Source: Sphingomonas sp. BT-65 | GTDB lineage: Bacteria; Pseudomonadota; Alphaproteobacteria; Sphingomonadales; Sphingomonadaceae | Length of the DNA: 64,000 nucleotides | Direction: 5' to 3' | Assembly (NCBI RefSeq): GCF_026107375.2 | Contig: NZ_JAPCIA010000001.1 | Location: 558,001-622,000, forward strand | In this document: positions 21,728-45,593 of the stretch, piece after piece | Numbering within the stretch: position 1 is the first letter of the stretch | Layout: each line of letters starts with the position of its first letter | Translations under genes and position numbers: made by a program | Notes under the pieces: model-generated | What the model was told of the DNA's origin: nothing | Database searches by the model: none | Seen by the model: the letters and a program-made list of their open reading frames with translations, nothing else

Positions 21728-21763
21728 AAAAAAGCCACCCCGGCCAGCATGGCGCGGGGTGGC
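21728..21763 (-). terminator. intrinsic terminator closing the two-partner secretion operon
   Basis: Read on the minus strand, GCCACCCC (21763-21756) pairs perfectly with GGGGTGGC (21741-21734) and is followed at once by six T residues (21733-21728). It lies 32 bp after the stop of the PstS-like gene, exactly where the long minus-strand gene series ends. Confidence 0.88.
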
Positions 21764-21794
21764 AGGCCGACTTCGCTTGGGGACGAAGCGAGGG

Positions 21795-22855
21795 CTATTT
21801 GAGCTGTGCGGGATCGAGCGGTGTCATGTTGCTGACGATTTCGGCATTGGCGGTACGCACGGCGTCGGGGGCGACGACCATGCCGCGCTTGACGAGGTAT
21901 CCGTCCGGGCCCCAGGCGTCGGCGAACGCGCTCACATACTCCTTGAGCCCGCGCACCGCTTGGAGATGCGCCTTCTTGACGTAGAGGTAGAGCGGCCGCG
22001 CGCCCGGATAGCTCCCGCCCGCGATCGCGTCATAGGTCGGCTCGACCCCGTCGATCGCGATCCCGCGTACCCATCCGGCATTCTCCTCGAGATAGCTGTA
22101 GCCGAAGATCCCGATCGCATTGGGGTTGGCGGTCAGCTTCTGGACGATGAGGTTGTCGTTCTCGCCCGAATCGACGAACGCGCCGTCGTTGCGCAGCGAG
22201 GTGCAGACCTTCTTGTGGGCGTCCTCGTCGCTTTTCTTGAGCTCGGCCATCCTGGGATCGCTGTCGCAGCCCTTGGTCAGGATGAGCTCGGTCAGCGCGT
22301 CGCGCGTGCCCGAGGTGGCGGGCGGGCCGAGCACCAGGATCGGGATCGCGGGCAGCGAGGGATCGACGTCCTTCCAGGTTTTGGCGGTCTGCGCTTCCCC
22401 GAACGGCGTCTCGGCGAGCGCGGCGTAGATCTGCTTGACCGTCAGCTTCATCGCGGGTCCCTCGACCGATTCGGCCAGTGCGATGCCGTCGATGCCGATC
22501 TGGATCTCGACGATCTCGTTGACGCCATTCTTGGCGCATTCGTCATATTCGGACTTCTTGAGCCGGCGCGAAGCGTTGACGATGTCGGGGTGCGAGGCGC
22601 CGACCCCGGCGCAGAACAGCTTGATGCCCGCGCCCGTGCCGGTCGATTCGACGATCGGCGAGCGCGCATCCTGCTGGGTCTTGACCCAGGTCTCGGCCAC
22701 CAGCGTGGCGAACGGATAGACGTCGAGGAGCCCACAGAACGGATCTGGTCGCGCGAACCGCCCGCCTGGGCGCTACCGCCACCGGATTGCCCGCCACACG
22801 CGGACAGCGACAGGGCCAGCGCACCACCGGCGATCGAAGCGAAAAGACGATTCAT
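21795..22855 (-). pseudogene. PstS-family phosphate-binding lipoprotein, frameshifted
   Basis: The start at 22855 gives a lipoprotein signal (SLSACGG), a Gly/Ser linker and DQIRSVGSST, which is the start of the PstS fold. The frame then shifts: in frame 1 the text becomes Arg/Ser-rich junk, while the next frame gives VYPFATLVAETWVKTQQ and runs to the stop at 21795 with GTGAGIKLFCAG, GPPATSGTRDAL and GIFGYSYLEENAGW. Adding one base near 22721 restores SSTVYPF, the phosphate-loop motif. So one nucleotide is missing, either truly or by sequencing error. Its start overlaps the preceding stop by 4 bp. No pstCAB genes are present in the window. Confidence 0.8.
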
Positions 22856-23280
22856 TGGATTTCCCTTTTGCTGTTCGTGTCGGGTTCGGGCGGTGCGGGC
22901 GCAACCGTCACCGCCAGACGCATCGGCTGGCGCATCCCCACCGGCGGTGTCCCCGGCAGCTTGCGGCCAAGCAGCAGCGTCTTCAGTTGCGCATCGGCGC
23001 CTACCGGCACAGGCGTGACGGAGGCGGCGATCTCGGCACGCTCGATCTGGCTGGCTGCGTCGACGCCGATGATCAGCACCAGTTCGCGTTGCGCGGCGGT
23101 GCCGTCGGCTGCGGTCACCAGCGTATCGCGCAGCGCGACAGCGCCCGGCTCATCGCCGTTCAGCAGCGCATCGATATCGGTTTGCGCCAACGCGGCATAG
23201 GCCTGCCAGGCCGCAGGCGCCTGTTCGGCCGCGACGACCTGAACCGGTGCAGCAATCAGCAGGATCACGGCAAGGATCAT
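22852..23280 (-). CDS. small secreted protein of the secretion operon, unknown
   Basis: 142 residues with a cleavable-type signal (about 1-18, MILAVILLIAAPVQVVAA). The body has a helical segment (AWQAYAALAQTDIDALL) and a C-terminal part with LLLGRKLPGTPPVGMRQPMRLAV, probably a beta strand-rich tail. No family recognised. Both ends overlap neighbours by 4 bp (ATGA), so it is made together with the OmpH-like and PstS-like proteins. Confidence 0.65.
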   Translation of the reverse strand: MILAVILLIAAPVQVVAAEQAPAAWQAYAALAQTDIDALLNGDEPGAVALRDTLVTAADGTAAQRELVLIIGVDAASQIERAEIAASVTPVPVGADAQLKTLLLGRKLPGTPPVGMRQPMRLAVTVAPAPPEPDTNSKREIQ

Positions 23281-23855
23281 TGCGTCCCGGCCGGCGCAGG
23301 CGGCAGCGTCTCGCGGTTGAAGCTGAACGGCGCGACCTTTGCGTCAAGCGCGGTGACCACATCGGGCGTCAGGTCGTTGGCGAGATTGCCGCCCATCACG
23401 CTGTTGCGGTCGAGCAGCAGCCCGCATTTGCGCGCGCGATAGGCCTCGGCGATCAGCGGCTGCGCGCGATCGGAGATCTGCGCCAGCACCTTGGCGCGCG
23501 TCGCCTCGATCTCGCGGCTGCGCTGCTCGGCCTTGACACGGATCGGCTGCATCCGCGCTTCCAGCGCCTGCTGGCGCTGCGCGCGCTGCTCGGGCGTCAG
23601 CTTGGCGAACTCGGCCTGGAACGCCGCTTGCTCCTTGTCGAGCGGCGCGCGCTCGTTGTTGACCTCGGTCTGCGCCTCGGTGGCGAGCTGCTGGAGCCGC
23701 GCCGTCGCAGCGGTCGCCACCTTGGCGTTGCCGAACACCGCCTGGCGCGAGAGCAGGCAGACGCCGGGCACCACCGGTCCGCCGAGCGGCTCGGCAGCAG
23801 GGCTCGCGGCGGGAGCGGCTTGCGCGGCGAGCGCGATGAAGAGCATAAAGATCAT
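23277..23855 (-). CDS. OmpH/Skp-like periplasmic chaperone
   Basis: 192 residues. After a short signal (about 1-14) comes CLLSRQAVFGNAKVA, the typical first strand of the OmpH family, then a long charged coiled coil (about 58-130, with QAAFQAEFAKLTPEQRAQRQ), and a returning strand LIAEAYRARKCGLLLDRNSV. Skp trimers grip unfolded outer-membrane proteins in the periplasm. In this operon it is a natural candidate for holding the giant exoprotein or the barrels before insertion. Starts and ends with 4-bp overlaps. Confidence 0.82.
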   Translation of the reverse strand: MIFMLFIALAAQAAPAASPAAEPLGGPVVPGVCLLSRQAVFGNAKVATAATARLQQLATEAQTEVNNERAPLDKEQAAFQAEFAKLTPEQRAQRQQALEARMQPIRVKAEQRSREIEATRAKVLAQISDRAQPLIAEAYRARKCGLLLDRNSVMGGNLANDLTPDVVTALDAKVAPFSFNRETLPPAPAGTQ

Positions 23856-24613
23856 GCGTCCTGTTCCTCAGGATCGAGCCCGGCCTGGCGCGCGAGCAGC
23901 AATTGAAAACGGTCGAGCGAAGCGAGGTGGAAATGCACCAGCGCCAGCCACCCGCGCTTGTGCCAGTCGAGCACGGTCGCATCGTCGAGCGCATCGAACT
24001 TCGCCGGATCGACGATCTGGAACCCCTGCAGGCCGAAGGTGCGGCCATCGGGCAGTGTCGCGTCGGCGCGGCGTTCGGTCAGCAGATCCTTCTCGGCGAG
24101 CGCGGCGCAAAAGGCGCGCGTCATCTCAGATTCGGCGTGATAGGCGTCGCAAAAGGCGAGCGCCTGACGCGTGCGCTCGGTCGGCTCGCCGCCCTCGAAC
24201 AGCGCAATCCCCGCCTCGCCCGTCTCGACGACTTGGCCCGATCCCGCATCGATCGCGAGGATGAAATGACCCGGCTCGCCGGTCGCGACGAAGCCGAACG
24301 GATAGCGACGGACATAGGCGGGAACATAGCTTTCGCGCGTCCATTCGCCGTCGCGGACGAACAGGTTGCGCCGCTCCAGCCCCAGCACCGCCACGGGCAC
24401 CGCGCCCGGCATCGCGAACACCAGCGGGTAGCTTTGCGCAGAGCGCGCGAACTCGCTGGCGACGACCGGCACATAAGCCGCTTCCGCCGCGAAACCCGCA
24501 TCACCTTCCAACAGCCGCCATGCCGCATGCGCCTCGCTCGAAAGCGGGCGGGGGTCGCGGTAGAAGGGCGGCAGCGCCGTCTGCGGCCGCTCGTCGGTCA
24601 TTACTTCGGTCAC
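23852..24613 (-). CDS. SapC family protein
   Basis: 253 residues. Typical SapC text is present: PLVFAMPGAVPVAVLGLERRNLFV, YVPAYVRRYPFGFV, the conserved FILAIDAGSG, and LVHFHLASLDRFQLLL near the end. The family is named after an S-layer cluster protein of Campylobacter and is often found beside TonB-dependent receptor loci; its biochemical role is unknown. There is no signal peptide, so it is probably cytoplasmic. Its start overlaps the exoprotein stop by 4 bp. Confidence 0.85.
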   Translation of the reverse strand: MTEVMTDERPQTALPPFYRDPRPLSSEAHAAWRLLEGDAGFAAEAAYVPVVASEFARSAQSYPLVFAMPGAVPVAVLGLERRNLFVRDGEWTRESYVPAYVRRYPFGFVATGEPGHFILAIDAGSGQVVETGEAGIALFEGGEPTERTRQALAFCDAYHAESEMTRAFCAALAEKDLLTERRADATLPDGRTFGLQGFQIVDPAKFDALDDATVLDWHKRGWLALVHFHLASLDRFQLLLARQAGLDPEEQDA

Positions 24614-27600
24614 GAACGCCCTCCCTTGCGGACCGGCCCCTTGAGCAGGAAGCTGTTGGGCCCGATCCGGCGTACCTGCACATTCTGTCCGCGAGTCAGC
24701 GCGCGCAGCGCCGCTTCGGTGGTCATCGATCCGCGCACCGGGCGCACGTTGACGCCCTCCAGGTCCTTGGGATCATAGACGATGTTGGCACGCGACAGCC
24801 GCCCCACTGCTAGCACCGCCTCGGCGACGGTCGGCTCGCTCACGTCGAAGCTGTAGCGGTTGTCCGCCACCCGCACGGGCTGGACCGCAGTGTCCATTGC
24901 CGCCGCCAACGCAGGCCCCGCGCGCGGCGTGACACTGTTGCTGGCGCCGGTGCCGCCGCTGTCCTGCGGGCATTGGCGCGGGTCGGTGCAGGCCTCGCCG
25001 AAGCCGGTCACCCGCACCTCGATGATCGAGGGCGAGCCGATCGCGGAGTTGCGGCGCACCTGACGTACCTGCTCGGTCACCATCGCCACCGCCTCGCGCG
25101 ATTGCGCGTCGGCCTCGGTCGGCTGGATCAGGTTGAGCGGTGCCGCGGGCGGCGTCGGCAGGCCGATCGCGATGCCAGCGACGTCGATATTGTCGGTGCC
25201 CAGGATCTGCACCGCGAACACGTTGAAGTTGCCCGACACGCGGATGCCCGCGTCACCCGCATCAACGATGCCGTTGGGCGCGATCAGGTCGACGTCCGCC
25301 ACCGGCGCGCCGGGGATCGACGCCACCGTACCGATGCCGGCACCGGTCGGCAGGCCGGCCGGCGTGCGGCCCATGGTGAACAGGTCGGGATGGAGCGTAT
25401 AGTTGTAGAAGGTCGGCGAGATCGAGGTCTTGGCCCCCTTGCCCGCCGCGATGTCGCCATAGCTCGACCAGATCAGCATGTTGCCGCCCAGCGCGGTGAG
25501 GACGCGCGATTGGTTCACGGTCACATCGTCATAGGCGAAGATATTGATCGCGCCGCCATTGGCGGTGACGATCCCGGCGCGTAGCGCGTTGCCGCGGCCG
25601 CCATTGCTCGGCGGCTGGCCCGTCGCGTCGGCCGGCGCTGCGATGTTGGCGAGCTTGAGCGCGCCGCCCGGGATCATGAAGTCGATCTGCCCCCCGCCGT
25701 TTGAGAGCACGCGGCTGGCATAGGTCTCGAAATCGCCCTTCCAGCGCGATTCCCCTGCGGCCAGCGCTTCGCTCGCGCGCTTCTGGGCGCCGGGGAACAG
25801 CGTCTTGATCGCGTCATAGCCGCGGAAGGTGGTGTCGTTGCGCTCGCTCTCGGGGTCGTTGGCCTCGCGGCCCGTGGTGCGCAGCTCGAGATAGAGCACG
25901 TCGCGCAGGAACGGCGACTTATAGTCCTCACCCAGCCCCTCCCAATATTTCCACGCGGTATCGAGATATTCGAGCTGCTCCGCCTGGGTTTCGAGCGGTT
26001 CGAGCCCCTGGAGCTTGCGGACGTAATTGACGAGGCCCTGGCGCTGCTCGGGCAGGTAGAATTCGACGCCGATGTCCGCCGCCCGCGCCTTGCTCGGGAA
26101 GAACTGGTCGAACGGCGTCGCCTGCCCGTTGGGCAGCCCCATCCAATATTCGACCGCGCTCTCCATGTAATCGGCCTGCTGCGCCGCGGTCTCGAGCGGC
26201 GGCAGGCCCTGCAGCCCGCGCATATGGTTGACGAAGCCGGCGCGCAGTTCCTCGGTGAAGAAGATGCTGTCGGGGCGCACGTCGCCGCGCGTGTAGAGCC
26301 GGTCGAAGAGGTAATAGGAGAGCTCCTTCCCGCCGCCCGCGTCCTTGAGCAGGTAGGAGATGACCGAGCCGTTGGGGTCGAGATAGCTGGTCTCGAACGC
26401 CGCGACGTCGGGCCGCTGGTTGAAGCCGACGCTGATCGCGATGTCCGCCGCCTTCTGCCCCGGATTGAGCACCTCCGCCGGATTGGTGTCCCACGGCACG
26501 GGGTCGGGCAGCATCAGCCAGTTGCTGGTGATGCCGTTGGCGTTGCTGGGGATCCACAGATCGCCGCCGGTCTCGATCTCGAGGCGGCCGGGGCCGTTGA
26601 CCGTGATGTAGTTGCTGCCGTTGAAATACATGCCGGCACCCGCGCGCACGATGCTGAGGTCGAGCGCATTGTTGTGCTGGAGCGTCAGGTTGGGGAAGTA
26701 GACGTCCCCGCCCGCCTGGATCCATGCCGCCTTGGGCAGGTCGATCGCGGCTGACGTGACGATGTCGTTCCCGGCATAGATGCGCACCGGCTGGGTGTCG
26801 CCGACGTGCAGCACCGGCGGATTCTCGCGCGTGAAGGCGATATTCGGCCCCGCGGTCAGGAAGTGCTGACGCTCGAACCGGCCGAGATTGTTGTTGGTGC
26901 TGAACGGATGCAGCGGTGTCTTGTGCAGCTCGACATAGGATTGACTCAGGATGATCCCGCCGAACCCGCTGCGGAAGTTGGACGCGTTGGCGTAGTTCGG
27001 GTCGAAGATGAACTGGTCGACGTTGCGCGTCGCGTTGCCGATATGCACGTCGCCGCGCGCGAGCAGGTCGAGCGTCCCGGTCGGCGACGGCGCGAGCAGC
27101 AGCCCGCCCAGCACGTTGATGTCGCCCGACGCCGCGACCACGCTGACATTGGCCGGCCACAACTCGAACGCGACGTTGCTCGTGCCCGCATAGGCACGGG
27201 TCGAGGTCCAGCCGCCGACATTGGTCGGGTTGAGGACGTCGCCGAACAGCCGCTCGATGTCGATGTTGCTGCCGTTGTTCCACAGCTTGATGTCGCCGCC
27301 GGCCGAGAACAGGCTGACCTTGGCGTCGGGCGTGTAGCTGAAGAAGCCGTTAGCGTCGTCGGGGCTGGGCATCAGCGGATCGAGCACCGCCTCGATGTTC
27401 ATGTCGCCACCGCTGGTGACGCGGAACTCGCCCGACGAAGTGTAGAGCAAGGTGTAGATGTCGTTCGCCACCAGCTTCAGCATCGGATCGATGTAATAGT
27501 AGATCTGGCCGGTCGTCTGGCCCGGCAGGCCGCCGCCCGACGTGCCCGGCTTCCAGCCGATCGCCTTGTCGCTGGAGATGAACGCGCCGCCCGCGCTGAT

Positions 27601-30600
27601 CACGCCCAGACCCTCGGCGACATAGAATTTGCCCGAGCCGATATTACCGCCGGCGCGGATGTTGAGGTCGCCGCCGCCGGTGACGGTGAGCGCCATCGGC
27701 TCGCCGATCTTGGTGTTGCCGACGACGCGGCCGGTGGTGGGCAAGTTGACCGCGAGGTTGAGGATGTCGCCCCCCGCGCTGATGTCGATATTGCCGCCGC
27801 CCAGCGCGCCGATGCCCGCCTGGTAGGTCGGGAAGTTGACGTACCAGGTGCTCTGGTCGAACGCACGGCCATTGGCCTGCGCGAACACGCCGTCGGTGCG
27901 GACCGAGCCCAGCGCGACGAGCCAGCCGCTCGGCAGCTGCGGACTACCCGAACCGAAGATCGTCCCCGCGACATTGACCGAGATGTCCCCGCCGTTGATC
28001 GGATAGGACGCACCCGCCGGAGCGTAGAAGCCGGCCAGCGTCGGCGCATTCTCACCCGCGGTGTAGATCACCGAAGGCCGGTACTGCAGCACCAGGTCCT
28101 TCGCGCTGGCGAGGTTGATGCCCGCAGTGCCGGTGCGCACCAGATAGCCGGTCGAGTTATCCCACTGGATGATCTCGCGTGCCGTCAGCGGATTGAGGTT
28201 GAAGGTGTTGGTCAGCGTCGAACCGTCGGCGCGCAATCGGGCATAGCCGCCGCCATCGTCGAACGCGAGCGTCGGCAGCGGGCGCCGGGCATAGTTATCG
28301 GTATCGACATAGTCGCCGGTCACCGGATCCTTGAGGATCGGCTGCCCCGTCTGCGGGTCGAGATACCGCCCCTGCGCATTGCGCGTCAGCTCGACCCAGC
28401 CGAGGTGGTAGTTGTTGGGCTGGCCAGTCCGCACGAAGCGGCCGGTCGTCGGGTCCTTGAGGTAGAGCCGGTTCTCGTTGCCACGCGCCGGATCGTAATA
28501 ATATTCGATCGTGTCGGGCGTACCGCCGACGATGATCGAACCCTTGCCCTGATCGAGCAGCCCGCCCGGCAGCACCGCCAGCGAGTTCGGGCTCAGCACA
28601 TTGGCGCCCGCGGTCAGGTTGAACGTCCAGCTCGGGCCGTTGAGCAGCAGGCCGTTCGCCTTGGGCGTGGTGAACCCGTCCGAGAGGTTGGCGTTGATCT
28701 TGAGGTCGCCCTTGGCGCGCAGCGTCAGCACGCCCGCCGCGCCGTTGAAGCGCACATTGTGGAGATCCCAGTCGGTCTTGAGCTCCATGTCGCCGTCGGA
28801 GCGCAGCTCGATCCCGGGCGCCACGGTGACGCCGCCGCCGAGCCGCGCCTGGATCGCCTGGGCGTTGTTCATGAACGCCGCCGCGTCGGCCTGGACCATG
28901 TTGATCACCGGCTGATCGATCACCGTCACGCCCTCATAGACGCGGAACGCCTCGGCCAGCACCTGACGCGCGCCGGTGATCGTGCCCGCGACCTGGCCGA
29001 CCGCCATGTCGTTGCCGATCTGTGGCGCGCGCAGCCGCACTAGGCGGCCGCCGTCCCCCGTCCCCGACACGTCGATCAGCGATCCCGCCGCCAGGTCGAT
29101 CCGTCCGCCGCCGCGGCCCTGCGTCTCGAGCAGCACCGTGCCGCCCGATCCGTCCGCGGCATTGGCCTTCGCCAGGATCTTGCCGCTCGCCAGCAGGTTG
29201 ACGTTCTCCGCCGCGGCGAGCTGCACGCGGCCACCATTGGCACCGACCGTCTCGATCGTGCCGGCGAGATTGATCGAGCCGTCATTCGCCACCACGGCGA
29301 AGTCGCGCACCCGGATCGTGCCGGTGATCGTGGCGTCGCCCTGGTTGAACTCGAAGCGCCGCGATTCGCGGAACCCGCCCGCATCGAGCGCGGCGTTGAG
29401 GGCGGTGAAGTCGCCCAGCGTCGCGCTCAGCACCGAGAAGCTGCCCGAGCGGTAGCCGTCGATCGCGCTACCCTTGACGCCCGAACCCAGCGTCACGTTG
29501 CCGAGTCCGGCAAAGGCGTTGAGCGCGCCGGCATCGCCGCCCGCGCTCGAGCCCGACACGTCGATCACCGCGTTCTGCGCGAGCGTGATGTTGCCGCGAT
29601 CCGAGGTCAGGTTGACCGTTCCCGCGCCAACGCCGACCTCGACGTCGAAGATGCGGCTGACATTGCTGGTCACGTCGATCGACGATCCGCTCGCCAGCAC
29701 CACGTCGCCCTGGCGGGCGCGCAGGTTGACGATGCCGCCGGTCAGCCCGATGCGACCGCTGCTCGTGATCGAGGAACCGGTGAAGCCGATCGTCGCGCCG
29801 AAGGTCGAGAAGGGATCGAGCGTGCCGCCCGCACTGGCAAGCGAGATCGCCCCGCCCGCATCGAAGAACAGCCGCGCGCCGCTCTCGGCGGTCACCGCGC
29901 CCGCGTCGATCGTCAGCGCGCCGTTGGTGAACAGCGCGCCGTCGTCATGGCCGATCACTCGCTTCGCCGCATCGATCGTCAGCGTGCCGACGCCGGAGAT
30001 GCGCTTGTCGCCGCCCGAGAAATGGATGTTATCGCCAGCGAGCAACATCGCGACGTCGCCGCTGCTACCCGCCACCGCGCCGCCATTGGCGTTGGCGATG
30101 GTCAGCGTGCCGGCCGAGACGGTGACCTTGTCCCCGCCGTCGCCGATCGCGCGAATTTCGCGCGCATCGAGCGTCAGGCCGTTGTCGGCGTCGAGCGTCA
30201 CCGTGCCATGGAAGTCGATCGTGCTGTAGCTCTTGAGCGCGATGTCCTCGGCCGCCGCGAGCGCGCCGAGCGACCCGCCGGCGAAGACCAGCCCGGAGGT
30301 TCCCGCAGGCACCTCGCCCACGCTGACGCGCGAGGCGGCGGCGGCGATCTGCTTCGCCGCCAGCGACGCCTTGCCGCTGAGCGCGATGTCGCCGGTCGTG
30401 TCCATCGCCAGCGAGCGGCTCGAGCTGAGCTTCGCGCCGTCGGCGATGATCAGGTTGCCGCCCGGGGTCAGCGGCGCGAGGCCGCTGGCGACGCGCGAGG
30501 CGTTGACGATCGCGAGTTGGGCCGGATCGGCCAGCAGCGCGCTCAGCGCATCGACCGCGGTCAGGTTGCGCAGGATGTCGACCTGCCCGCTCGACGACAG

Positions 30601-37020: not shown

Positions 37021-37049
37021 CGGGCTCTACTCCGGACGGGTCGGTCGGA

Positions 37050-37625
37050 TTACGGGTTGTTCGGCTCGGGCTGGGACGCGGGCTTGGCCTCGGCAGGCGC
37101 GGCCAGCTCGGCGCGCATCCGCGCCTCGACGCTCGGCGGCAGCGTGTCCTTGGTGAAGCGCTGGGCGCGCAGCTTGTCCTCATAGTCCTGGACAAGGTTC
37201 TCGAGGCGCACGCGCGACGACTGGACGAAGGGCTCGCTTCCCCCGACCAGCGCGAAGAAATCCTTGCGCGCATAGCGGTCGAGGATCTCGCGGCCGAGCT
37301 TGAGCAGCTCGGCGTTGCGCGTGCGGCCGAGCTCGATCAGCTCGTCCTTGAGCTTCGCCTCCGCGCGCGCGCGGTCGAGCTGGCCGCGAGCATTGTCGGC
37401 GATCAGCATCTGGCGGCCGAGCTGGCGGCGCAGCGTCTCCACTTCGGCGCGCAACCGTTCGGCCTCGGTCGGCGGCTTGGCGGGGATTTCCGGCGCGGCG
37501 GGTTGCCCCGCCGTGGCGGCGGTGGGCGCCGCCACGGCGGTATCCTGCTCCTGCGCCGCCGCCAAAGGGGAAAAGGCAGCGGTGAGGGCCAGGACGAGTG
37601 CGGACGTACGAAAAGCCATGATCAT
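37050..37625 (-). CDS. periplasmic coiled-coil protein
   Basis: 191 residues with a signal peptide (about 1-25, ending LAAAQE), an Ala/Pro-rich spacer and a long heptad-type helix (about 53-110: AERLRAEVETLRRQLGRQML, then KLKDELIELGRTRNAELLKLG). The C-terminus again is Pro/Ala-rich. It resembles periplasmic adaptor or chaperone-like helical proteins, but no family is certain. It sits 30 bp upstream of the giant exoprotein and 8 bp after the porin, so it is likely made together with both. Confidence 0.7.
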   Translation of the reverse strand: MIMAFRTSALVLALTAAFSPLAAAQEQDTAVAAPTAATAGQPAAPEIPAKPPTEAERLRAEVETLRRQLGRQMLIADNARGQLDRARAEAKLKDELIELGRTRNAELLKLGREILDRYARKDFFALVGGSEPFVQSSRVRLENLVQDYEDKLRAQRFTKDTLPPSVEARMRAELAAPAEAKPASQPEPNNP

Positions 37626-37632
37626 GCCCTCC

Positions 37633-39186
37633 TCAGAAGCCCGAAGTCAGGTTGATCTGGAGGACGTCGACGTCGAACGGCGCGCGGTTGATCGACTTGG
37701 TGCTGTACCAGTTCACGCCGATCGCGGTGTTGGTGAACACGCCGAGCTGGCCCTCGATGAGGTAGCCCTTCACGTCGGTGCCGCCGAGGCCGAAGTCGCT
37801 GTCGGTGAAGATGTCGAGCACCGCGTCGGTGCCGATCCGCTTGTAGCCAACCCCCAGCTGCCAGTCGCCGAGCTTGGCGATCTTGTCGTGGCCGACATCG
37901 AGGCGGACCTGATAGCCGTAATTCTCGGGCGGCACGCTCGCCGGCTCGCCCACCCGCCGCGCGGCGATCTCGGCCCGGTTGAAGCCGATATTGTGGACAT
38001 ATTCGCCGGTCAGCCTGACCCCGATGTCGCCGAAGCCCGAATAGGCGATGCTGCCGGTGCCTGCGACCAGCTCGAACTTCGAGGCGAGGCCGGGCAGCGA
38101 GGTCACGCCGTCGGTGCGCAGGTCGAACAGCGAGTTGCCCTGCGACAGGAACAGCGGCGCGGTGAAGTCGTTGAGCCGCGAGCCGTCGGGCGCGTTGCGG
38201 ATGCCTTGGACGTTGCGGAAGTCGTAATAGGCGCCGGCGACGGTCAGTTTGAGCTTCTCGGCAGGCTCGAACTCGACGCCCGCCTGCCCCGCGACGAGGT
38301 TGCGGTCATAGGGATCGAGCTCGCGCTCCTGCAGCGGGAACCAGCCGCCGGTCAGGAACAGCCTGGTGTTGAGTGTCTCCTCGCCGAACTGGTAGCTGAG
38401 CTTCGCCGCCACACCCTCTGGGTTGATATCGGTGTCCCACACCATGTCGGTCGAGACGAACGGATTGGGCATGCGCCCGCCGACCAAAGTCACCTGCTCG
38501 AGCGGCGACAGCTCGACGAACGCGCGGTCGATATAGATGCCGTCCTTCTGGAAGAAGTCGCCCAGCGTCTCGTTGGTCGAGACCGGCCCCGGATTGTCGC
38601 CCGAGGCGAGGCGGAAGCCGACCTTCACCTGATCGGTGATCTTCGCCTCGACTCCGAGCCGCGCGCGGTAGCGCAGCATGTAGCGGTTGATCGTCGAGTT
38701 GAGCAGCGGGAAGTCGTTGCGCGGCGATCCGCCGGCCTGGACGATCGCGTTGACGTCCGGGAATTGCGGGAAGTTGGTGTCGGAGAACAGGTTCGCCTGG
38801 TAACGCAGCCGGAAATCGCCCGAGAGGGTGATGCGATCGAGCCAGCCCGGCATCTTGTTCGGGGCGATCCAGCGCTTGGTTTCGGCCTCGGCGATCACCT
38901 CGGCCTTCACCTGGTCGCGGATCTGGTTGCGCACGGCCTCGGGCACATAGGGCACGTCGATCGTCGAGGACGTCTTGGGCGCCTCGCGCTGGGCGCGGAG
39001 TTCGGCCGCCTTCTTGGCGCGATCGAGCAGCTGCTGCGCCTTCTCGAGCGGGATCACCCCCTCGTCGACCAGCAGCTGGAGGATCTCGACGCCGACATCG
39101 TCGGTCTGCGCCTGCGCCGGCTGGGCGGCGAGCGCGATCACGGCCAGCGCGGTACCGCTGCGCAGGAGATTGGAAACGAACGGCAT
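37633..39186 (-). CDS. putative outer-membrane porin
   Basis: 517 residues from the ATG at 39186, which has a GGGGGAAG ribosome-binding site; the frame is open to 39351 but that portion overlaps tonB. A signal peptide (about 1-26) is followed by a helical N-terminal segment (about 29-75, VEILQLLVDEGVIPLEKAQQ) and then a beta barrel with alternating strands such as ITLSGDFRLRYQANL and KVGFRLASGD, ending INLTSGF. This matches the putative-porin family with an N-terminal coiled coil. It may be the outer-membrane partner of the adjacent ExbB-ExbD-TonB set; substrate unknown. Confidence 0.82.
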   Translation of the reverse strand: MPFVSNLLRSGTALAVIALAAQPAQAQTDDVGVEILQLLVDEGVIPLEKAQQLLDRAKKAAELRAQREAPKTSSTIDVPYVPEAVRNQIRDQVKAEVIAEAETKRWIAPNKMPGWLDRITLSGDFRLRYQANLFSDTNFPQFPDVNAIVQAGGSPRNDFPLLNSTINRYMLRYRARLGVEAKITDQVKVGFRLASGDNPGPVSTNETLGDFFQKDGIYIDRAFVELSPLEQVTLVGGRMPNPFVSTDMVWDTDINPEGVAAKLSYQFGEETLNTRLFLTGGWFPLQERELDPYDRNLVAGQAGVEFEPAEKLKLTVAGAYYDFRNVQGIRNAPDGSRLNDFTAPLFLSQGNSLFDLRTDGVTSLPGLASKFELVAGTGSIAYSGFGDIGVRLTGEYVHNIGFNRAEIAARRVGEPASVPPENYGYQVRLDVGHDKIAKLGDWQLGVGYKRIGTDAVLDIFTDSDFGLGGTDVKGYLIEGQLGVFTNTAIGVNWYSTKSINRAPFDVDVLQINLTSGF

Positions 39187-39226
39187 TTGGGTCTTCCCCC
39201 TCAGTTCGAATTGATTGCGGGAGGCG

Positions 39227-39940
39227 TCAGCCGCCCGTGCGTCGCATGTTGATCGTGGCGTAGGTCCGCCCGTTCTGGTTGGCCGGCAGCCCGCGGGTGA
39301 GCGGCGGCAGCGTCGCCAGCACCCGGCGCACCGCGTCGTCGAGCTCGGCATTGCCGGTCGAGGAGCGCAGCCGCGCGCCGGTGAACCTGCCCGTGCCGTC
39401 GATATCGACCATCACGTTCAGGAAGCCCTGCGCGGTGCGGGTCTTGGGATCCCGCTGCAGCGCACGCCGGATGTGCGTTTCGACGAACGCGCCCCAGCTG
39501 CCGCCGCCCAGGCCCCCGCCGCCACGCCCGAACAGGCCGCCACCGCCGCCCGCCGCGAGGCGGAAGCTGTCCGATCCCGCGTCCGCCGGCCGGTCGAGCC
39601 CGGCGGGCTCGCTGGTCGCGGGCGCCTCGGACGGCGCTTCGGCAGGCTGCTCCGAGGGCTGCTCGACGTCCTTCTGGATCTCGGGCTCCTCCTCGGGCGG
39701 CTCGACGATCTCGGGCTCCTCCTCCATGATCTTCTCTTCGGGCGGCGGAGGCGGTGGCGGGGTGACCACGCTGATCTCCTGGATCACCCGCTCACGCTCG
39801 GTCAGCGTGCCGCTGGGCCAGAAGTACCAGATGAGCAGTCCCGCCGCGGCGAGCAGGAGCAGGGCGAACCCTGCATTCCCGGCCCATTCCGGCAGGCGGC
39901 GGCCGTCACGCCGGTCGCCCGCGGGTGCGGTGGCGGCCAT
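39227..39940 (-). CDS. tonB: TonB family protein of the secretion operon
   Basis: 237 residues. One N-terminal membrane helix (about 23-41, AGFALLLLAAAGLLIWYFW), a linker starting with seven prolines and then unusually acidic (EEKIMEEEPEIVEPPEEEPE), a Gly-rich hinge and a TonB C-terminal domain (about 147-235: VETHIRRALQRDP, GFLNVMVDIDGTGRF). TonB normally links ExbB-ExbD to an outer-membrane partner. It follows exbD after 3 bp. No classical TonB-dependent receptor is in the operon, so the partner may be the porin, TpsB or the STN-bearing exoprotein. Confidence 0.9.
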   Translation of the reverse strand: MAATAPAGDRRDGRRLPEWAGNAGFALLLLAAAGLLIWYFWPSGTLTERERVIQEISVVTPPPPPPPEEKIMEEEPEIVEPPEEEPEIQKDVEQPSEQPAEAPSEAPATSEPAGLDRPADAGSDSFRLAAGGGGGLFGRGGGGLGGGSWGAFVETHIRRALQRDPKTRTAQGFLNVMVDIDGTGRFTGARLRSSTGNAELDDAVRRVLATLPPLTRGLPANQNGRTYATINMRRTGG

Positions 39941-39943
39941 GGC

Positions 39944-40351
39944 TCAGGCCGCCTTCTGCCGCTCGGACACCAGCCCGAGCTGGGTGATGCCCACGCGCCC
40001 GCACACGTCGAGCACTTCCATGATGCGCCCGTATTGCGAGACCCGGTCGCCCTTGATCACCACCGGGAACTCGGGCGTCACCGCCTTGAACGAGCGCAGC
40101 TGGCTCTCCAGCTCGTCGATCGTCACCGGGATGGTGTCGAGGTAGATCGCACCCGAGCTGTCGATCGCGATCGCCTTGGTCGTCGGCTTGGCGAGGCTCA
40201 CCGAGGACGACGCCTTGGGGACGTTGACCTTGATCCCCTGCACCGCCGCCGTCGTCATGATGATGAAGATGACGAGCAGCACGTACGCCAGGTCGAGCAT
40301 CGGCGTGATGTTGATGTCGTCGTACGGCTTCTTCTTGGTGTGGACGCGCAT
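39944..40351 (-). CDS. exbD: ExbD-type proton-channel subunit
   Basis: 135 residues from the ATG at 40351, preceded by GAGGAGGGG. One membrane helix contains the essential aspartate in ITPMLDLAYVLLVIFI (D20), the proton-carrying residue of ExbD/TolR. The periplasmic domain (VPVTIDELESQLRSF, FPVVIKGDRVSQYG) is standard. The frame is open further upstream but that stretch overlaps the ExbB gene. It lies between the ExbB fusion and tonB, completing one motor. Confidence 0.93.
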   Translation of the reverse strand: MRVHTKKKPYDDINITPMLDLAYVLLVIFIIMTTAAVQGIKVNVPKASSSVSLAKPTTKAIAIDSSGAIYLDTIPVTIDELESQLRSFKAVTPEFPVVIKGDRVSQYGRIMEVLDVCGRVGITQLGLVSERQKAA

Positions 40352-40361
40352 GGTCCCCTCC

Positions 40362-42176
40362 TCACTCGGCCGCGACGGGCATAGGGGTGGGAACCGGCGC
40401 CGGGGCGCTGCGGTGAGTCTCGGCGATGCGCTTCTCGAGCTCGTCGACGAAGACGTCGGCGTCGGAGGCGATCTCCTCGAGGCGGCTGACGAGATAGTTG
40501 TAGCCGAACAGCGCCGGGATCGCGACCGCGAGGCCGGCGACCGTGGCGAGCAGCGCCGCGGCGATGCCGGGCGCAATCGCATTGATGTTGACGTCACCCG
40601 CGGCGGCTACGCCGGCGAAGGTGATCATCACGCCGATCACCGTGCCGAGCAGGCCGAGGAACGGGCCGCCCGAGATGGCGATGGTCAGCAGCACCATCCA
40701 CTTGTTGAGCCGCTGGTTCTCGCGCACCTGCCCGGCGTCCATCGCCGAGCGGATCGCCTCGACCGATTCCCGGCCAAGGCCGGTGCGGTGCGCCAGGCTG
40801 CCCGGCGCCATGCGGTCGGCAAGCCCCTGGTCGGCGATCGCGAACAGCCGCGCCAGCGTCGAGTCAATGCCCATGCGGTTGAGCTCCTCACCCGGGATCG
40901 CACCCTGGATGCGGCCATTGGCGGTGGCGTGGCGATAGGCGGCGAGGAAGCGGCGGTTGGCCGACACCGTGCGCCCGACCAGCCGGCCCTTGGCGAACAT
41001 CACCCACCAGCTGATCGCCGCCATGAACCCGAGCAGGATGATCACCGCCCAGGCGTCGGGCGTCAGCGCGTTGACCAGGATACCGAAGTAATTGTGGCCG
41101 CCGCTGCCCGCCGCATCCGGCTCGCTCGCGACGTTGACCAGCGTCGCGGAACGGCCCTGGCTCTGCGCGGCGAGCGCGATCGCCGCCGGGCTGCGCGCCG
41201 CATTGGCGCGGCCGAGCTCGTCGATGTCGCCGGTGAAGGCCGGGATCGGCCCGAGCGAACCGATCACTTCCTCGCCGTCGAGCTGGGGCAGCGCGGCCTG
41301 GATCGTGCCGATCGCGGCGCCGTTGAGGTAGAGCGTGACCACGCCCTCGCTCGCGGTGACCGCGAGATGAGCCCAGCTCCCCGGCGCGAGTGCGGTCGAT
41401 GCCGCCGCTTCGCCCGTGGTGCCGTCGGCACCGGTCAGGCGGACATAGGGCACGCCGCCGCGCAGGCCGACCGCGAGCCGCGCCGGAGCCGCCTCGCCGC
41501 CCGCCGAGAGCTTGGTGAAGACCAGGCCTTCCTGCGGCCCGCCCGCCTGCGGACGCACCCAGGCCGACCAGGTCATCGACCCGCCCGCCGGAATGGCCAG
41601 CGATTGCGACGGCGCGATGCGCAGCTGGCTCTCGCCGGCGAAGGTCGCGCCGCCGGCGATCAGCCCCTCGACGCTCGGCTTCGCGGTGAACGCCGCGATG
41701 CGGTTGCGGTTGGCGGTCTGGTCGGCCGGCGCATTGCTCTCCGAGAAGTGCAGCACCAGACTCTGCTCGCCGTCATAGCTGCCATTGGCATTGGCGGCGG
41801 GCGTCGCGGCCTGATTGCCGTAGTAGAGCCAGATCTTCTGCGGCGAGCCGGCATCGACCTGCGGCATGTCGACCCAGATCAGCGCCAGCTCCGCGGTCGC
41901 GTCGTAGCGCTCGATATGATAGGTCAGCGCGGTCTTGTCGTCCGCCGCGACGAAGCGGATGTCGCCGCCGTCCGGGCGCGCCTTCGAAAAGTCGAAGATT
42001 CCCGAATGGAGCCGCACCAGCACCGGGACGCGGGTCAGCGAGCCCTGCACGCCGCGCATGCCCGACGCGTCGAGCGTCACTTCGCGGCGTTCGGTCCAGT
42101 CCTTGTTCCACCACGCCATGGCGGAGGACGGAAGCAGCGCGAGCCCCAAAAACAGCGCGCCGAGGATTTTCTTCAT
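40362..42176 (-). CDS. ExbB/TolQ-type channel fused to DUF2341 and LamG-like domains
   Basis: 604 residues from the ATG at 42176 (GAGGGGG site 8-9 nt away; a GTG two codons earlier is an alternative). A signal peptide ends SSAMA and is followed by WWNKDWTERREVTL, a DUF2341 start (about 22-130). A LamG/concanavalin-like domain follows (about 145-325: GSMTWSAWVRPQ, SWAHLAVTASEGVVTLYLNG). A membrane helix at about 373-392 starts the ExbB/TolQ channel, whose core (ISGGPFLGLLGTVIGVMITF and IAAALLATVAGLAVAIPALF) is at about 495-570. Ordinary ExbB is ~240 residues with no such periplasmic part. The carbohydrate-binding-type domain would face the periplasm. exbD starts 10 bp downstream. Confidence 0.9.
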   Translation of the reverse strand: MKKILGALFLGLALLPSSAMAWWNKDWTERREVTLDASGMRGVQGSLTRVPVLVRLHSGIFDFSKARPDGGDIRFVAADDKTALTYHIERYDATAELALIWVDMPQVDAGSPQKIWLYYGNQAATPAANANGSYDGEQSLVLHFSESNAPADQTANRNRIAAFTAKPSVEGLIAGGATFAGESQLRIAPSQSLAIPAGGSMTWSAWVRPQAGGPQEGLVFTKLSAGGEAAPARLAVGLRGGVPYVRLTGADGTTGEAAASTALAPGSWAHLAVTASEGVVTLYLNGAAIGTIQAALPQLDGEEVIGSLGPIPAFTGDIDELGRANAARSPAAIALAAQSQGRSATLVNVASEPDAAGSGGHNYFGILVNALTPDAWAVIILLGFMAAISWWVMFAKGRLVGRTVSANRRFLAAYRHATANGRIQGAIPGEELNRMGIDSTLARLFAIADQGLADRMAPGSLAHRTGLGRESVEAIRSAMDAGQVRENQRLNKWMVLLTIAISGGPFLGLLGTVIGVMITFAGVAAAGDVNINAIAPGIAAALLATVAGLAVAIPALFGYNYLVSRLEEIASDADVFVDELEKRIAETHRSAPAPVPTPMPVAAE

Positions 42177-42198
42177 GATCACAACCCCCTCAGGAAAT

Positions 42199-43827
42199 TC
42201 AGAATGCGAACCACAGGCGGAACTGCCCGCGCAGCTTGCCGTCGAAGTCGGTGAGCGTGTCGCCCGGATCGATCAGCGGCGCCGCCAGCAGCGCGTCGAT
42301 GTTGACGTATTTGGCCAGGCGCAGGCGCGTGCCGAGGCCCAGGCTGGCGAGCTTGCCGTCGGCCTTGATGTTGCCGTCGATGTCGGGAAGCGCGTCGAGG
42401 ATGCGCGTGTAGCCCCAGTCCGCGAAGCCGTAGAACCGCCACTCGTCGACGCCCTTGCCGATCAGGCCCGCCAGCGACGGCGAATAGAGGTCGAACTGGC
42501 TCGACACGCCGATGTCGCCGAGCTCCTGGCTCTCGAAATAGCCGCGCACGCTGTCCCACCCGCCGATCGAGAACTCCTCGTTCGAGATCAGCGGCTCGTC
42601 GGCGAGCTGGCCCGCGACGCGCCACGAATAGCGGATGTCGTTCTTGAAGGTGTAGCTGTACGATGCGTCGAGCCGCAGCGACGACCAGCTCGCGCTGGCG
42701 TTGAAGCGCTTGAGGCGGAACTCGAGCTCGTCGGCGTCGAGCCCGCGCAGGCCGACATTGACGCCCGCGGTGAACGAGAATTCGGAGCGCTCGCCGGTCC
42801 GCCCGGTGGCATATTGCAAGGTCAGCGGCATGTAGCTGATCGGCGTGCGGCCAAATTCGGGGCCGAGCACGAGATCTTCCTGGAAGTTCTTGTAGTCGAG
42901 ACCGAGCGTCAGCGTGTGCTTCCAGTCGCCCTGCGAGAAATTGTAGATGCCGCGCACGCCGACAATGTCGCCCGAGCCGAGCACGTTGATCCCGCCGACC
43001 GCGGCGACGTCGCTGTCCGAATGCACGCCATAGACAACCACTGCGAAGGGTGTGCCCTGGATCGGCGCGACATAGCTGCCCGAGACGATCCACGACTGCG
43101 CCGGGTCCTGCGGGGTGAACTGGCCCTGCACGCTGAGGCTGTGCCCCAGCTGCCAGAGATTGGCGTAGATCAGGCTGGCCGAGAGGCGCAGCCGCTCGGT
43201 CTGCGCGCTGGCGCGGTCGTTGAGCTCGAGCGTGCCGTGGAGCGGCGCCTGGTCCTCGACCTGCAGGTCGACATCGACCGTGCCCGGCGTGTCGCCCGCG
43301 CGCAGCGCCGGGGTGATCGTCCGCTCGCCGCTCTTGTTGAGCGCGGCGATCTCGTCCGACACCTGCTTGTAATTGGGGACATTGCCCTCGGCGAGCGACG
43401 GGGCGCGCTTCTTGATGTCCTCGGACGAGAAGAAACGGGCGCCGGTGACGCGCAGGCGGCCGACCGCGAGCTCGGTGACCTGCAGCCGCACCACGCCGTC
43501 GCGCACTTCCTGCTCGGGGATCTCGACCGCGACGGTCTCATAGCCCTTGTCGCGATAGACCTTCTCGAGCGCGGCGCGGGCCTTCTCGACATCGTCCTGC
43601 GGGCGCTGCGGGCCGAGATAGGGCAGCACCGCCGTCTCGACCTCGACGCGCGAGAGCACGCTGTTGCCCTCGATCCGGTAGTTGAGGATGTCGACCGGCC
43701 GCGCGGTCGCGACCGGCTCGGCCGCCGGCGCATCCTGCGCCGCCGCCGGAGTCGCCAGCGCGACAAGCGCGCAACCTACGCACAATACGCCCTTACGAAC
43801 CGCAAGACCGGCAATTCCCACCGTCAC
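42199..43827 (-). CDS. TpsB/FhaC/ShlB-type outer-membrane transporter
   Basis: 542 residues. Signal peptide about 1-30. Two POTRA domains (about 45-195), the first with YRIEGNSVLSRVEVETAVLPYLGP (shortened here to IEGNSVLSRVEVETAVLPYL), are followed by a 16-strand barrel. The family loop-6 motif is present as VRGYFE, and the protein ends with Phe (RLWFAF), the BAM signal. TpsB proteins secrete TpsA exoproteins; the partner is almost certainly the giant gene downstream. The start is a GTG at 43827 or 43821 behind GGGGGG. It follows a 339-bp intergenic region and starts the main operon. Confidence 0.92.
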   Translation of the reverse strand: MTVGIAGLAVRKGVLCVGCALVALATPAAAQDAPAAEPVATARPVDILNYRIEGNSVLSRVEVETAVLPYLGPQRPQDDVEKARAALEKVYRDKGYETVAVEIPEQEVRDGVVRLQVTELAVGRLRVTGARFFSSEDIKKRAPSLAEGNVPNYKQVSDEIAALNKSGERTITPALRAGDTPGTVDVDLQVEDQAPLHGTLELNDRASAQTERLRLSASLIYANLWQLGHSLSVQGQFTPQDPAQSWIVSGSYVAPIQGTPFAVVVYGVHSDSDVAAVGGINVLGSGDIVGVRGIYNFSQGDWKHTLTLGLDYKNFQEDLVLGPEFGRTPISYMPLTLQYATGRTGERSEFSFTAGVNVGLRGLDADELEFRLKRFNASASWSSLRLDASYSYTFKNDIRYSWRVAGQLADEPLISNEEFSIGGWDSVRGYFESQELGDIGVSSQFDLYSPSLAGLIGKGVDEWRFYGFADWGYTRILDALPDIDGNIKADGKLASLGLGTRLRLAKYVNIDALLAAPLIDPGDTLTDFDGKLRGQFRLWFAF

Positions 43828-44166
43828 CCCCCAAACAAACCGAATCGCCGGATAGATAGTATTTGTTACGTATCAGAGACTCGTATTACTTTAATACTTG
43901 AATGACTTACGCGCACAGACGGGATCACACCGGAAATACTATTCCGATATGCGCGTGTATTATTCTGTAGTTGTTATTCTGTTCTAGGAACTGAACTTGA
44001 GCGCTACTAACGAACGCGCGGCACCGGACACTTCCGGCACCGCCACGGTCGATTTCATTTGCCTACTCATGAGACGCCCGGCACCGGCGACTCCATCAGT
44101 CATCGGCGAAAAAATTCGGCACCCGCGAAATGGCGGGCGAAACGTTTCACGCCGGCTGGCCGCCGA
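43828..44166 (-). promoter_or_regulatory. AT-richer intergenic region between fecR and tpsB, likely operon promoter
   Basis: 339 bp with no convincing gene. A perfect palindrome GTATTA-CTT-TAATAC lies at 43883-43897, about 56 bp before the tpsB start codon. A second, imperfect one is GGAAATACTATTCC (about 43931-43944). Nearer fecR there is a CCGGA-N4-TCCGG hairpin around 44026-44039. This is the natural site for a promoter used by the ECF sigma factor encoded just upstream, but I cannot identify the -35/-10 pair with confidence. Confidence 0.5.
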
Positions 44167-45120
44167 TCAGCGCTTCTCCGCGCCGCCCTCGGCGATCACC
44201 GCGCCGTCCGCGTCCTCGCGATACGACCAGCCGTAAAGCTCCGCGACGAGTTCGCCGAACTGGCGCCCGCCATTGGTGGCGAAAATCCCGCTCAGCCGCT
44301 TGTCGCCCGGGGCGGCGGACAAGTGGATCGGCTTGCGCGTATAGCGGTTCATCTCGGTCACCGCCTCGTTCAGCGGCGTGTCGCGGAACACCAGCTCGCC
44401 GCGGCGCCATGAGGTGATCGAATCGATCGCGGGCCGGTCGACCCCGACCGCGCCATTGTCGCGCAGGATCATCCGCTGGCCGGGCAGCATCATCCGCGCC
44501 CCAGCCGAACTCTCGACCTTCACCTTGCCTTCCATCAGCGTCACCGACACTCCATTGGGAAGGCGCCGCACCAGGAAGATCGTGCCGACCGCCGTCACGC
44601 GCCGCCCGGCGGCCTCGACGACGAACGGCCGCTTGGCGTCGCTCTCGACCTCGAACATCGCCTCGCCGCGATCGAGGATCACGGTGCGCTCGGCGCCTGC
44701 GAAGGCGACGCGCAATTCGGTATCGGTATTGAGCGTGACGCGCGACCCGTCGGACAGCGTCGCGATCTCGCGCCCGCCGATTTCGGTGGTGAAGCGCTGG
44801 CCGCCGTCGCGCTGCCACAACAGCACGCCGGTAAACAGCAGCAGCACGGTCGCGGCGATCGCGGCGAATTGCGGGATGCCAGGACGCGCGAACCATGACG
44901 TCTTGGCGCGCGGCTTCTGCGCTGGCGCGAGCAGGCCCAGATCGTCCCAGATCGCCTGGGTGCGCGCGAAGGCGTCCTGATTGGCTTCGGATTCCGCAAG
45001 CCACGCCTCGAGCGCGCGCAGGTCCCCGTCGCCCGAACCGCGGTCCGTCCGCAAGGTCCAGTCGGCAGCCGCGTCGAGCGCCAGGGCCGGATTGCCCGCC
45101 ATGTTTCCGTTCGCCGTCAT
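44167..45120 (-). CDS. FecR-family anti-sigma regulator linked to the secretion operon
   Basis: 317 residues. The N-terminal FecR/DUF4880 helix bundle (ALDAAADWTLRT, ALEAWLAESEANQDAFAR) binds the sigma factor in the cytoplasm. One membrane helix (about 79-98, FAAIAATVLLLFTGVLLWQ) leads to the periplasmic FecR domain (TEIGGREIATLSDGSRVTLN) and a C-terminal STN-like subdomain (about 235-310, LNEAVTEMNRYTRKPIHLSA). In known systems this periplasmic part contacts the receptor's STN domain. Its ATG overlaps the sigma gene stop by 4 bp. The nearest STN partner is the exoprotein. Confidence 0.92.
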   Translation of the reverse strand: MTANGNMAGNPALALDAAADWTLRTDRGSGDGDLRALEAWLAESEANQDAFARTQAIWDDLGLLAPAQKPRAKTSWFARPGIPQFAAIAATVLLLFTGVLLWQRDGGQRFTTEIGGREIATLSDGSRVTLNTDTELRVAFAGAERTVILDRGEAMFEVESDAKRPFVVEAAGRRVTAVGTIFLVRRLPNGVSVTLMEGKVKVESSAGARMMLPGQRMILRDNGAVGVDRPAIDSITSWRRGELVFRDTPLNEAVTEMNRYTRKPIHLSAAPGDKRLSGIFATNGGRQFGELVAELYGWSYREDADGAVIAEGGAEKR

Positions 45121-45593
45121 TCCGTGTCCATCTCAGCCAGCAGGGTCAGTCCGCGCCGCAGCCGCCGCTCCACCGTCGCGGTGCCGACATTCTCGCGCTT
45201 CGCGATCTGCTCGATCGTCAATCCCTCCAGCCGCTTGAGGACGATCACCGTCCGAATCTCCTCCGGCAGCGCGTCGAGCGCAGCCCTCACCCGATCTAGA
45301 CGTTTGCGCGCGCCAATCACATCATCGGGCGTCGGCGCGGGGTCGTGCAGGTCCATTTCCTCGACCGGAACGGGTTCGAACCGCCAGCGCGCATGGCGGC
45401 GCACGATGTCGGCGGCGAGGTTGAGCGCGACGCGCACGACGAAGCCTTCGGGGGCCGCGATCTCCTCCGACCGGCGCGCTTCCTCGAGCCGCAGGAATGC
45501 CTCTTGTGCGACCTCGTCCGCATCGTTGGCGGAAAGGCCGCGGCGCATCACCAGCGCCCTGATCCGTCTTGCCGTCGCGTCGATCGATCGCAT
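45117..45593 (-). CDS. ECF sigma factor (FecI-like)
   Basis: 158 residues. Sigma region 2 is visible as GLSANDADEVAQEAFLRLEEA and region 4 as LDALPEEIRTVIVLKRLEGL followed by TIEQIAKRENVGTATVERRL, the helix-turn-helix that reads the -35. Region 2 is short at the N-terminus, starting MRSIDATARRIRALV, so the start could lie earlier. It is translationally coupled to fecR, the usual sigma/anti-sigma pairing of surface-signalling systems, and probably directs transcription of the tpsB operon. Confidence 0.92.
   Translation of the reverse strand: MRSIDATARRIRALVMRRGLSANDADEVAQEAFLRLEEARRSEEIAAPEGFVVRVALNLAADIVRRHARWRFEPVPVEEMDLHDPAPTPDDVIGARKRLDRVRAALDALPEEIRTVIVLKRLEGLTIEQIAKRENVGTATVERRLRRGLTLLAEMDTE

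Follow-up and report, generated by a model that had tools for sequence, protein, structure and literature searches.

The closest described counterpart of the gene cluster treated here is PUMA3 of Pseudomonas aeruginosa, which according to Llamas et al. 2009 (PMC2729926) consists of VreA, the sigma factor VreI and the regulator VreR, encoded next to tpsA, tpsB, exbB2, exbD2, a tonB homologue and PA0696. VreA combines an STN lobe with a TolA/TonB-like lobe, and the same association of two-partner secretion (TPS), ExbBD and porin genes is stated there for relatives, P. fluorescens among them. A further account (PMC7035377) gives the locus as pdtB-exbB2-exbD2-tonB4-porin plus PdtA, under VreA-VreI-VreR, names PA0696 a "putative outer membrane porin", and describes the inducing signal of PUMA3 as still unknown and ExbB2-ExbD2-TonB4 as uncharacterized. 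Here we analyse a cluster of about 24 kb, confined to the minus strand (positions 21728-45593), in a 64,000-nucleotide stretch of Sphingomonas sp. BT-65 (NZ_JAPCIA010000001.1, positions 558,001 to 622,000), called the window throughout; the host genome measures 4.08 Mb, and its nearest named relatives are Sphingomonas koreensis. By its gene content the cluster is a TPS locus of the PUMA3/Pdt kind, a gene set already described; an earlier note on this DNA had known of no system with the full set, but the P. aeruginosa locus holds it (PMC2729926, PMC7035377). What is new, as read from the genes, is the control module: no complete VreA was found, and the giant exoprotein closes with an STN domain. 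We consider it probable that a PUMA3/Pdt-type operon has had its control module exchanged, the exoprotein having come to occupy the transducer's place and to report its own export to FecR through its tail.

Every gene that the earlier note had named lies where it had placed it. As in PUMA3, an extracytoplasmic function (ECF) sigma gene (45117..45593, 158 amino acids (aa), Pfam Sigma70_r2 and Sigma70_r4_2) adjoins the gene of a FecR/VreR-type regulator, a transmembrane anti-sigma/regulator of 317 aa (44167..45120, Pfam FecR and DUF4880), and both are linked to tpsB-exbB-exbD-tonB-porin and a giant TpsA. These are the genes of the TpsB outer-membrane transporter (42199..43827, POTRA_2 and ShlB), an ExbB fusion carrying DUF2341 and a LamG-type (concanavalin A-like) domain at its N-terminus (40362..42182, Pfam DUF2341, Laminin_G_3 and MotA_ExbB), ExbD (39944..40351, Pfam ExbD), a TonB with a weak match to Pfam TonB_2 (39227..39940, 25.1 bits for a cut-off of 22; NCBIfam tonB_Cterm barely above cut-off), a putative porin of the Porin_5 family (about 37633..39258, PF16930, 475 bits), a secreted coiled-coil protein of no known family (37050..37625, no Pfam match), and TpsA itself, a filamentous-haemagglutinin-family exoprotein of 4136 aa with TPS, DUF3739 and STN domains (24610..37020). 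They are followed by sapC (23852..24613, Pfam SapC), the gene of an OmpH/Skp-like protein (23277..23855, Pfam OmpH) and that of a small secreted protein (22852..23280). The porin is the counterpart of PA0696, both by gene order and by the name given to the latter, so that the linked TPS pair, ExbB-ExbD-TonB and PA0696-like porin are present in the window as they are in PUMA3/Pdt-type loci; the comparison with P. aeruginosa rests on published descriptions, not on its sequences. With POTRA and the ShlB barrel in TpsB, and the TPS domain and a signal peptide (read by eye) in TpsA, the pair is predicted to be a two-partner secretion system that exports TpsA. FhaB/FhaC and HxuA/HxuB share these features of TpsB and TpsA, whereas the window adds a dedicated TonB-ExbB-ExbD, a sigma/FecR pair and a C-terminal DUF3739-STN region.

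The earlier note had held that these genes belong together, and they are indeed kept together in relatives, both in named loci and in a survey of Sphingomonadaceae. Of 8000 candidates that were scored, 723 are relatives of the ExbB fusion at E <= 0.001, and in the loci of the best 80 of at least 575 ExbB-fusion relatives we found relatives of exbD in all 80, of tonB in 76, of the porin in 72, of tpsB in 64, of the coiled-coil protein in 63, of FecR in 37 and of sigma in 29, all these counts being lower bounds, as many loci end at the 10-kb flanks or at contig ends. ExbB-DUF2341 is present in 21 of 298 Sphingomonadaceae genomes. In alphaproteobacterial loci sapC and ompH come after tpsA, with and without STN, and the whole secretion part (tpsB-exbB-exbD-tonB-porin-coiled coil-tpsA-sapC-ompH-small TonB-like protein) is common to loci run by VreA, sigma and FecR. 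An ExbB-type A subunit with N-terminal DUF2341 also appears in a MotAB survey of generic ion transporters (PMC12505986), as far as its account goes only as a domain of unknown function; here it is tied to a TPS operon. As a separate observation, a DUF2341-type ExbB relative of 38.8% identity lies on Klebsiella quasipneumoniae plasmid NZ_CP084804.1 (132730-134472), one of 11 plasmid records holding such relatives.

The STN domain occupies TpsA residues 4079-4127 of 4136, ending nine residues before the C-terminus (24640..24786; Pfam STN, 29.8 bits, cut-off 28.4). As in PUMA3, STN is thus located outside a beta-barrel receptor; there, however, it belongs to VreA, a separate periplasmic protein, and here to the exoprotein. 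In a comparison of the C-terminal region with the best 120 of 346 relatives, a terminal STN was found in 50 of the 57 nearest exoproteins among the matches listed, ending 2 to 17 residues before the C-terminus, and in none of the 63 more distant ones. The named carriers belong to Sphingomonas, Caulobacter, Asticcacaulis, Pelagerythrobacter, Tsuneonella, Woodsholea and Hyphococcus, the STNs of the last three being recognized by our own profile and not by Pfam. Such exoproteins (STN-TpsA) are rare: they occur in 6 of 298 Sphingomonadaceae genomes (counting matches that begin in the DUF3739 part and extend at least as far as query position 333), in one of the 387 genomes of the class sample, the window's own, and in none of 370 genomes of the class of G082. 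The arrangement was found in one alphaproteobacterial clade. We found no printed description of an exoprotein with a terminal STN, and no paper on DUF3739, in the searched literature, outside which subscription journals mostly lie. The accounts of the locus available from Llamas et al. 2009 and PMC7035377 mention neither the loss of VreA nor an exoprotein bearing STN, nor SapC/OmpH, nor the sigma, FecR and STN of receptor type discussed below.

The FecR of the window has a complete periplasmic region (profile positions 2-289 of 289) and matches PDB entries 4M0N, 4M0H and 6OVK, the last of which we take to be PupR. In the survey loci, both sides of which were fetched and scanned, FecR hits not spanning profile positions 15 to 280 were dropped, edge-cut Burkholderia ones among them. 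The 45 complete FecR open reading frames (ORFs) left include 33 with a VreA (STN plus TonB-like lobe) in the locus, ten with an STN-TpsA and none with both; the ten represent nine distinct loci (L169 repeats L006), and the STN-TpsA label was assigned by us from the exoprotein scans. Neither source was counted at L021, whose VreA is truncated by the edge of the fetched stretch but still shows its second lobe, and at L157, which entered the survey through an STN match and has sigma, FecR and a 254-aa STN frame, with no TPS gene in its 3.3 kb. A complete FecR therefore goes with one STN source, either VreA or STN-TpsA. Three kinds of loci stand beside this rule. L036, L047, L048 and L063 have sigma and a FecR reduced to its N-terminal part, lack VreA, and come from genomes in which the exoprotein tails seen carry no STN; in L170, L178 and L181-L184 the fetched 20 kb show no sigma, FecR or VreA, and for five of them exoprotein tails could be inspected (L151-L155), all without STN, L181 (G165, C4) being known from its survey matches and not from its tail; and at L189 (G004) a VreA is present, with no FecR found in the fetched stretch. 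L190 and L191 are contig fragments, and some named and survey loci possibly come from the same species.

A complete VreA (both lobes, against the VreA alignment) is absent from all eight genomes with STN-TpsA in which no second locus was seen (G000, G324, G287, G182, G344, G062, G064 and G094), the last of these being represented by an 819-aa STN-TpsA frame alone and lacking an ExbB fusion. The window's own genome, G000, has no VreA match over both lobes at E <= 1e-5; its hits in this search are frames of 832-1193 aa (STN part), the operon TonB, the small protein and the STN of TpsA. Two genomes, G061 (S. gei) and G075 (Sphingomonas sp. ERG5), have a VreA-type set besides their one STN-TpsA locus, with a single VreA and a further DUF3739 exoprotein, and with both module types in one cell they would be useful for studying cross-talk. 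An STN was present in 9 rows (8 loci) of the 66 exoprotein tails examined, some of them twice, and all nine belong to STN-TpsA loci or to G094.

A few observations on these FecRs and exoproteins may be recorded here. The N-terminal-only FecRs (L036 7247-7828, L047 6991-7278, L048 6976-7263, L063 6957-7448) belong to Methylosinus/Bradyrhizobium TPS loci and may represent a third control state, and in Burkholderia-group loci a second, short FecR-like ORF follows the complete one (L009 2575-3057, L016 2544-2936, L018 2787-3281, L043 2702-2980, L051 2473-2742). The genomes behind L056 (G084, a Tardiphaga metagenome-assembled genome) and L082 (G090, Bradyrhizobiaceae) have 20 and 17 DUF3739 matches, a large exoprotein expansion, of which three tails each were examined.

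We sought the origin of the control module in the type of its STN and in trees of its regulators. A first BLAST of the exoprotein STNs could not separate an origin from VreA from one in receptors, and an STN tree has too few columns to resolve much; profiles built with more STNs (28 receptor-type and 33 from VreA, with leave-one-out assignment correct in 28/28 and 33/33) did separate them. By these profiles, 49 of 50 exoprotein STNs score higher with the receptor type than with VreA (medians 64.5 and 45.0 bits); the 28 STNs taken as receptor-type lie in frames of at least 313 aa running off the fetched end, except for one in the 254-aa frame of L157. In the PDB the exoprotein STN is matched best, though weakly by itself, by HasR (2M5J, E 0.013) and the ferric-pseudobactin 358 receptor (2A02, E 0.016). 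The FecR tree, comprising 32 VreA-linked, 9 STN-TpsA-linked and 24 other FecRs from G000, G061 and G324, groups the STN-TpsA FecRs with 23 of the others (support 99). Of the 24 others, 21 adjoin an STN frame that continues beyond the fetched stretch; the exceptions, where no such frame was seen, are L281, L300 and L303. The VreA-linked FecRs form a set of their own (99), in which the sole outsider is L303, located 4 kb from the VreA of G061. The sigma tree agrees (98): VreA-linked and STN-TpsA-linked sigmas each form one group, the latter together with other sigmas of related genomes. P. aeruginosa proteins are absent from both trees. On the ExbB tree, the STN-TpsA loci make up one clade (100) near the alphaproteobacterial VreA-type clade, its sole unlabelled row, L198, being the S. 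gei locus again. Since STN, sigma and FecR all appear to be of the kind that serves TonB-dependent receptors, the exoprotein would stand in the place of such a receptor. With Fec/Pup-type cell-surface signalling the locus shares the type of STN, FecR and sigma, a TonB-box-like motif near STN and TonB-ExbB-ExbD; it differs in that the carrier of STN is a secreted exoprotein and not a receptor barrel, and in that STN is C-terminal, after the motif rather than before it.

This motif, EVRVTGFG, occupies TpsA residues 4001-4008 (24997..25020), between DUF3739 and STN. The genome has 83 Plug-domain matches, and from the stretch before the plug in 40 of them we built the TonB-box matrix (consensus EVVVTGSR) used to score the motif, a first matrix having been discarded because it had locked on the signal-peptide cleavage site. 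In the window's exoprotein, EVRVTGFG ranks first of 4129 8-mers. The best 8-mer between DUF3739 and STN ranks first of about 4130 in 35 of 50 STN-TpsA proteins and within the first five in 43; random segments of equal length reach rank 5 in 10%. Most STN-free homologues end in a related motif, yet only 6 of 70 reach rank 5, which is the chance level, so that a TonB box in all DUF3739 exoproteins is unsupported. The order found in receptors, as stated for FpvA in PMC2729926, is STN and then TonB box, the reverse of that in the window's TpsA.

In the mechanism that we propose, TpsA would exit through TpsB N-terminus first, and its C-terminus would for that reason be the last part left in the periplasm. 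There the dedicated TonB-ExbB-ExbD would engage the TonB-box-like motif of the tail and STN would contact the periplasmic domain of FecR, which would then free sigma to transcribe the tpsB operon. Transcription would in this way track the exoprotein chains docked in TpsB and fall once the tail leaves the periplasm. The earlier note had suggested that the filament feeds back on its own transcription; this agrees with the best reading of the position of STN, although the path from exoprotein to FecR to sigma is inferred. If it is true, cell-surface signalling can operate without a receptor barrel, with a secreted protein as transducer; the STN on the exoprotein would point to a concrete cue for PUMA3, namely TpsA export, and would give the motor a role in acting on the exoprotein tail. 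A wider statement can be put forward tentatively: that the exported giant protein itself became a cell-surface-signalling transducer, its last 140 residues (TonB-box-like motif and receptor-type STN), with a receptor-type sigma/FecR pair, having displaced the older VreA module, so that the cargo senses its passage through TpsB, for which the dedicated TonB-ExbB-ExbD supplies the power, and governs its own transcription, and that by the same logic the cue of VreA-type PUMA3 is the export state of the exoprotein.

Alternatively, though we think it unlikely, STN may be a periplasmic anchor or stopper that holds the C-terminus of the filament in the cell in the manner of the FhaB prodomain, and sigma and FecR may answer something else; STN-like domains are known as docking parts in secretins, which counts for such a role. 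TpsA C-termini that stay in the cell are known as well, the FhaB prodomain being intracellular according to the title of Noel et al. 2012. Against an anchor, TPS loci in which both are visible combine a complete FecR with an STN source, the four loci whose FecR lacks the periplasmic part show no STN, and the exoprotein STN is of receptor type.

Less probable again is that, in the manner of HxuA/HxuB/HxuC, the exoprotein captures a nutrient which motor and porin import, and that STN reports capture of the ligand and not export. HxuCBA does combine a TPS pair with a TonB-dependent transporter (PMC5422565), a Porin_5 gene lies inside the operon, and control modules of receptor type usually serve uptake. 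Against this, the operon has no Plug-domain receptor, the sole match in the window lying at about 61631-61951; with STN at the presumed inner end and the body outside, a ligand signal would have to cross 4000 residues; and the PstS-like gene has a broken frame and no counterpart found in the other loci compared. Finally, a plain PUMA3 member whose TpsA STN is an ornament and which is run by phosphate and PhoB like the P. aeruginosa locus would agree with the gene order and families, but is very improbable, as no complete VreA was found, sigma and FecR group outside the VreA-linked clade, and a Pho-box pattern matches nowhere in the locus and at the chance level in the window (2 found, 2.54 expected), which together with the flanking genes inspected gives no sign of the PhoB control and Hxc type II system reported for PUMA3.

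Several observations weigh against export sensing by the exoprotein tail. Seven of the 57 nearest exoproteins, Steroidobacter-like ones whose loci were not seen, are without STN (no such exoprotein was found among the 370 genomes of the class of G082). The TonB-box-like motif is absent or weak in 7 of the 50 STN-TpsA proteins, which are mutually related, and its median score of 11.2 compares with a minimum of 11.3 and a median of 19.8 in receptors. On the ExbB tree the fusion arose once, so that the nine loci are not independent. Approximately unbiased tests did not exclude a single clade of all system-linked FecRs (p 0.058, L303 counted in) or of all system-linked sigmas (p 0.098), and exchange of the control module for one of the TonB-dependent-receptor kind is accordingly favoured by the sequences, not proved. 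VreI activity in P. aeruginosa does not depend on VreA, leaving the role of STN there unproven, and in low phosphate the regulon is expressed even without VreA, an effect put down by the authors to leaky activity and not to signalling (PMC4971064, PMC7035377); mutants in tonB4, tpsA, tpsB and PA0696 kept VreI-driven virulence (PMC2729926). A sigma promoter motif upstream of tpsB was not demonstrable in the window. A motif noticed by eye in some STN-TpsA loci was rejected as the tpsB promoter of the window, where it is absent; it held in three of eight other regions (L004, L006 and L167), all among its sources, and failed in five.

The promoter region of the secretion operon is presumed to be the 339 bp between fecR and tpsB (43828..44166 by coordinates), which hold no listed gene; with this gap, a single transcript for the whole cluster is not required. 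The earlier note had described the series as unbroken, which is correct for the order of the genes and has to be amended for this gap and for the PstS-like gene at the end of the cluster (21795..22855). The start of this gene, which overlaps the stop of the small-protein gene, and its body (Pfam PBP_like_2 on 22700-21795) are in different frames, indicating either a true pseudogene or an assembly error. It has no match in the other loci compared, although the 10-kb flanks of the 80 named loci seldom extend that far, and as far as seen it appears to be outside the conserved gene set. The coordinates bear out the 4-bp overlaps noticed earlier at the last junctions (tpsA/sapC, sapC/ompH, ompH/small protein and small protein/PstS-like start), and sigma and fecR overlap likewise. 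The intrinsic terminator at the end of the cluster (21728..21763) is also real: a stem at about 21763-21734 is followed by a T run, its fold has z = -3.04 with none of 200 shuffles equally stable, and a weaker form of it was picked up by a simple scanner. The flanking genes inspected are unrelated by family: downstream lie ArsC and Pantoate_transf, and upstream, on the opposite strand, MipA and the genes of a two-component pair.

The small secreted protein, which the earlier note had called unknown, indeed has no Pfam family, but by hhalign with the VreA alignment it is similar to the second, TonB/TolA-like lobe of that protein (97.2%, E 3.7e-11). Ten of the 15 fetched loci whose TpsA lacks STN have a counterpart after ompH, all ten in VreA-positive genomes; none was found at this place in the eight other STN-TpsA loci, and the contig of G064 ends too early to tell. 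Because its counterparts occur in STN-free, VreA-holding loci and the exoprotein STN is of receptor type, we rejected the idea that VreA was split in the window, its STN lobe going onto TpsA and its TonB-like lobe remaining as the small protein. Small ORFs resembling the TonB C-terminal domain, similar in kind to this protein, are also found in Burkholderia-group loci several kb downstream of the secretion genes (L013 16174-16656 and 20501-21034; L030, L027 and L023).

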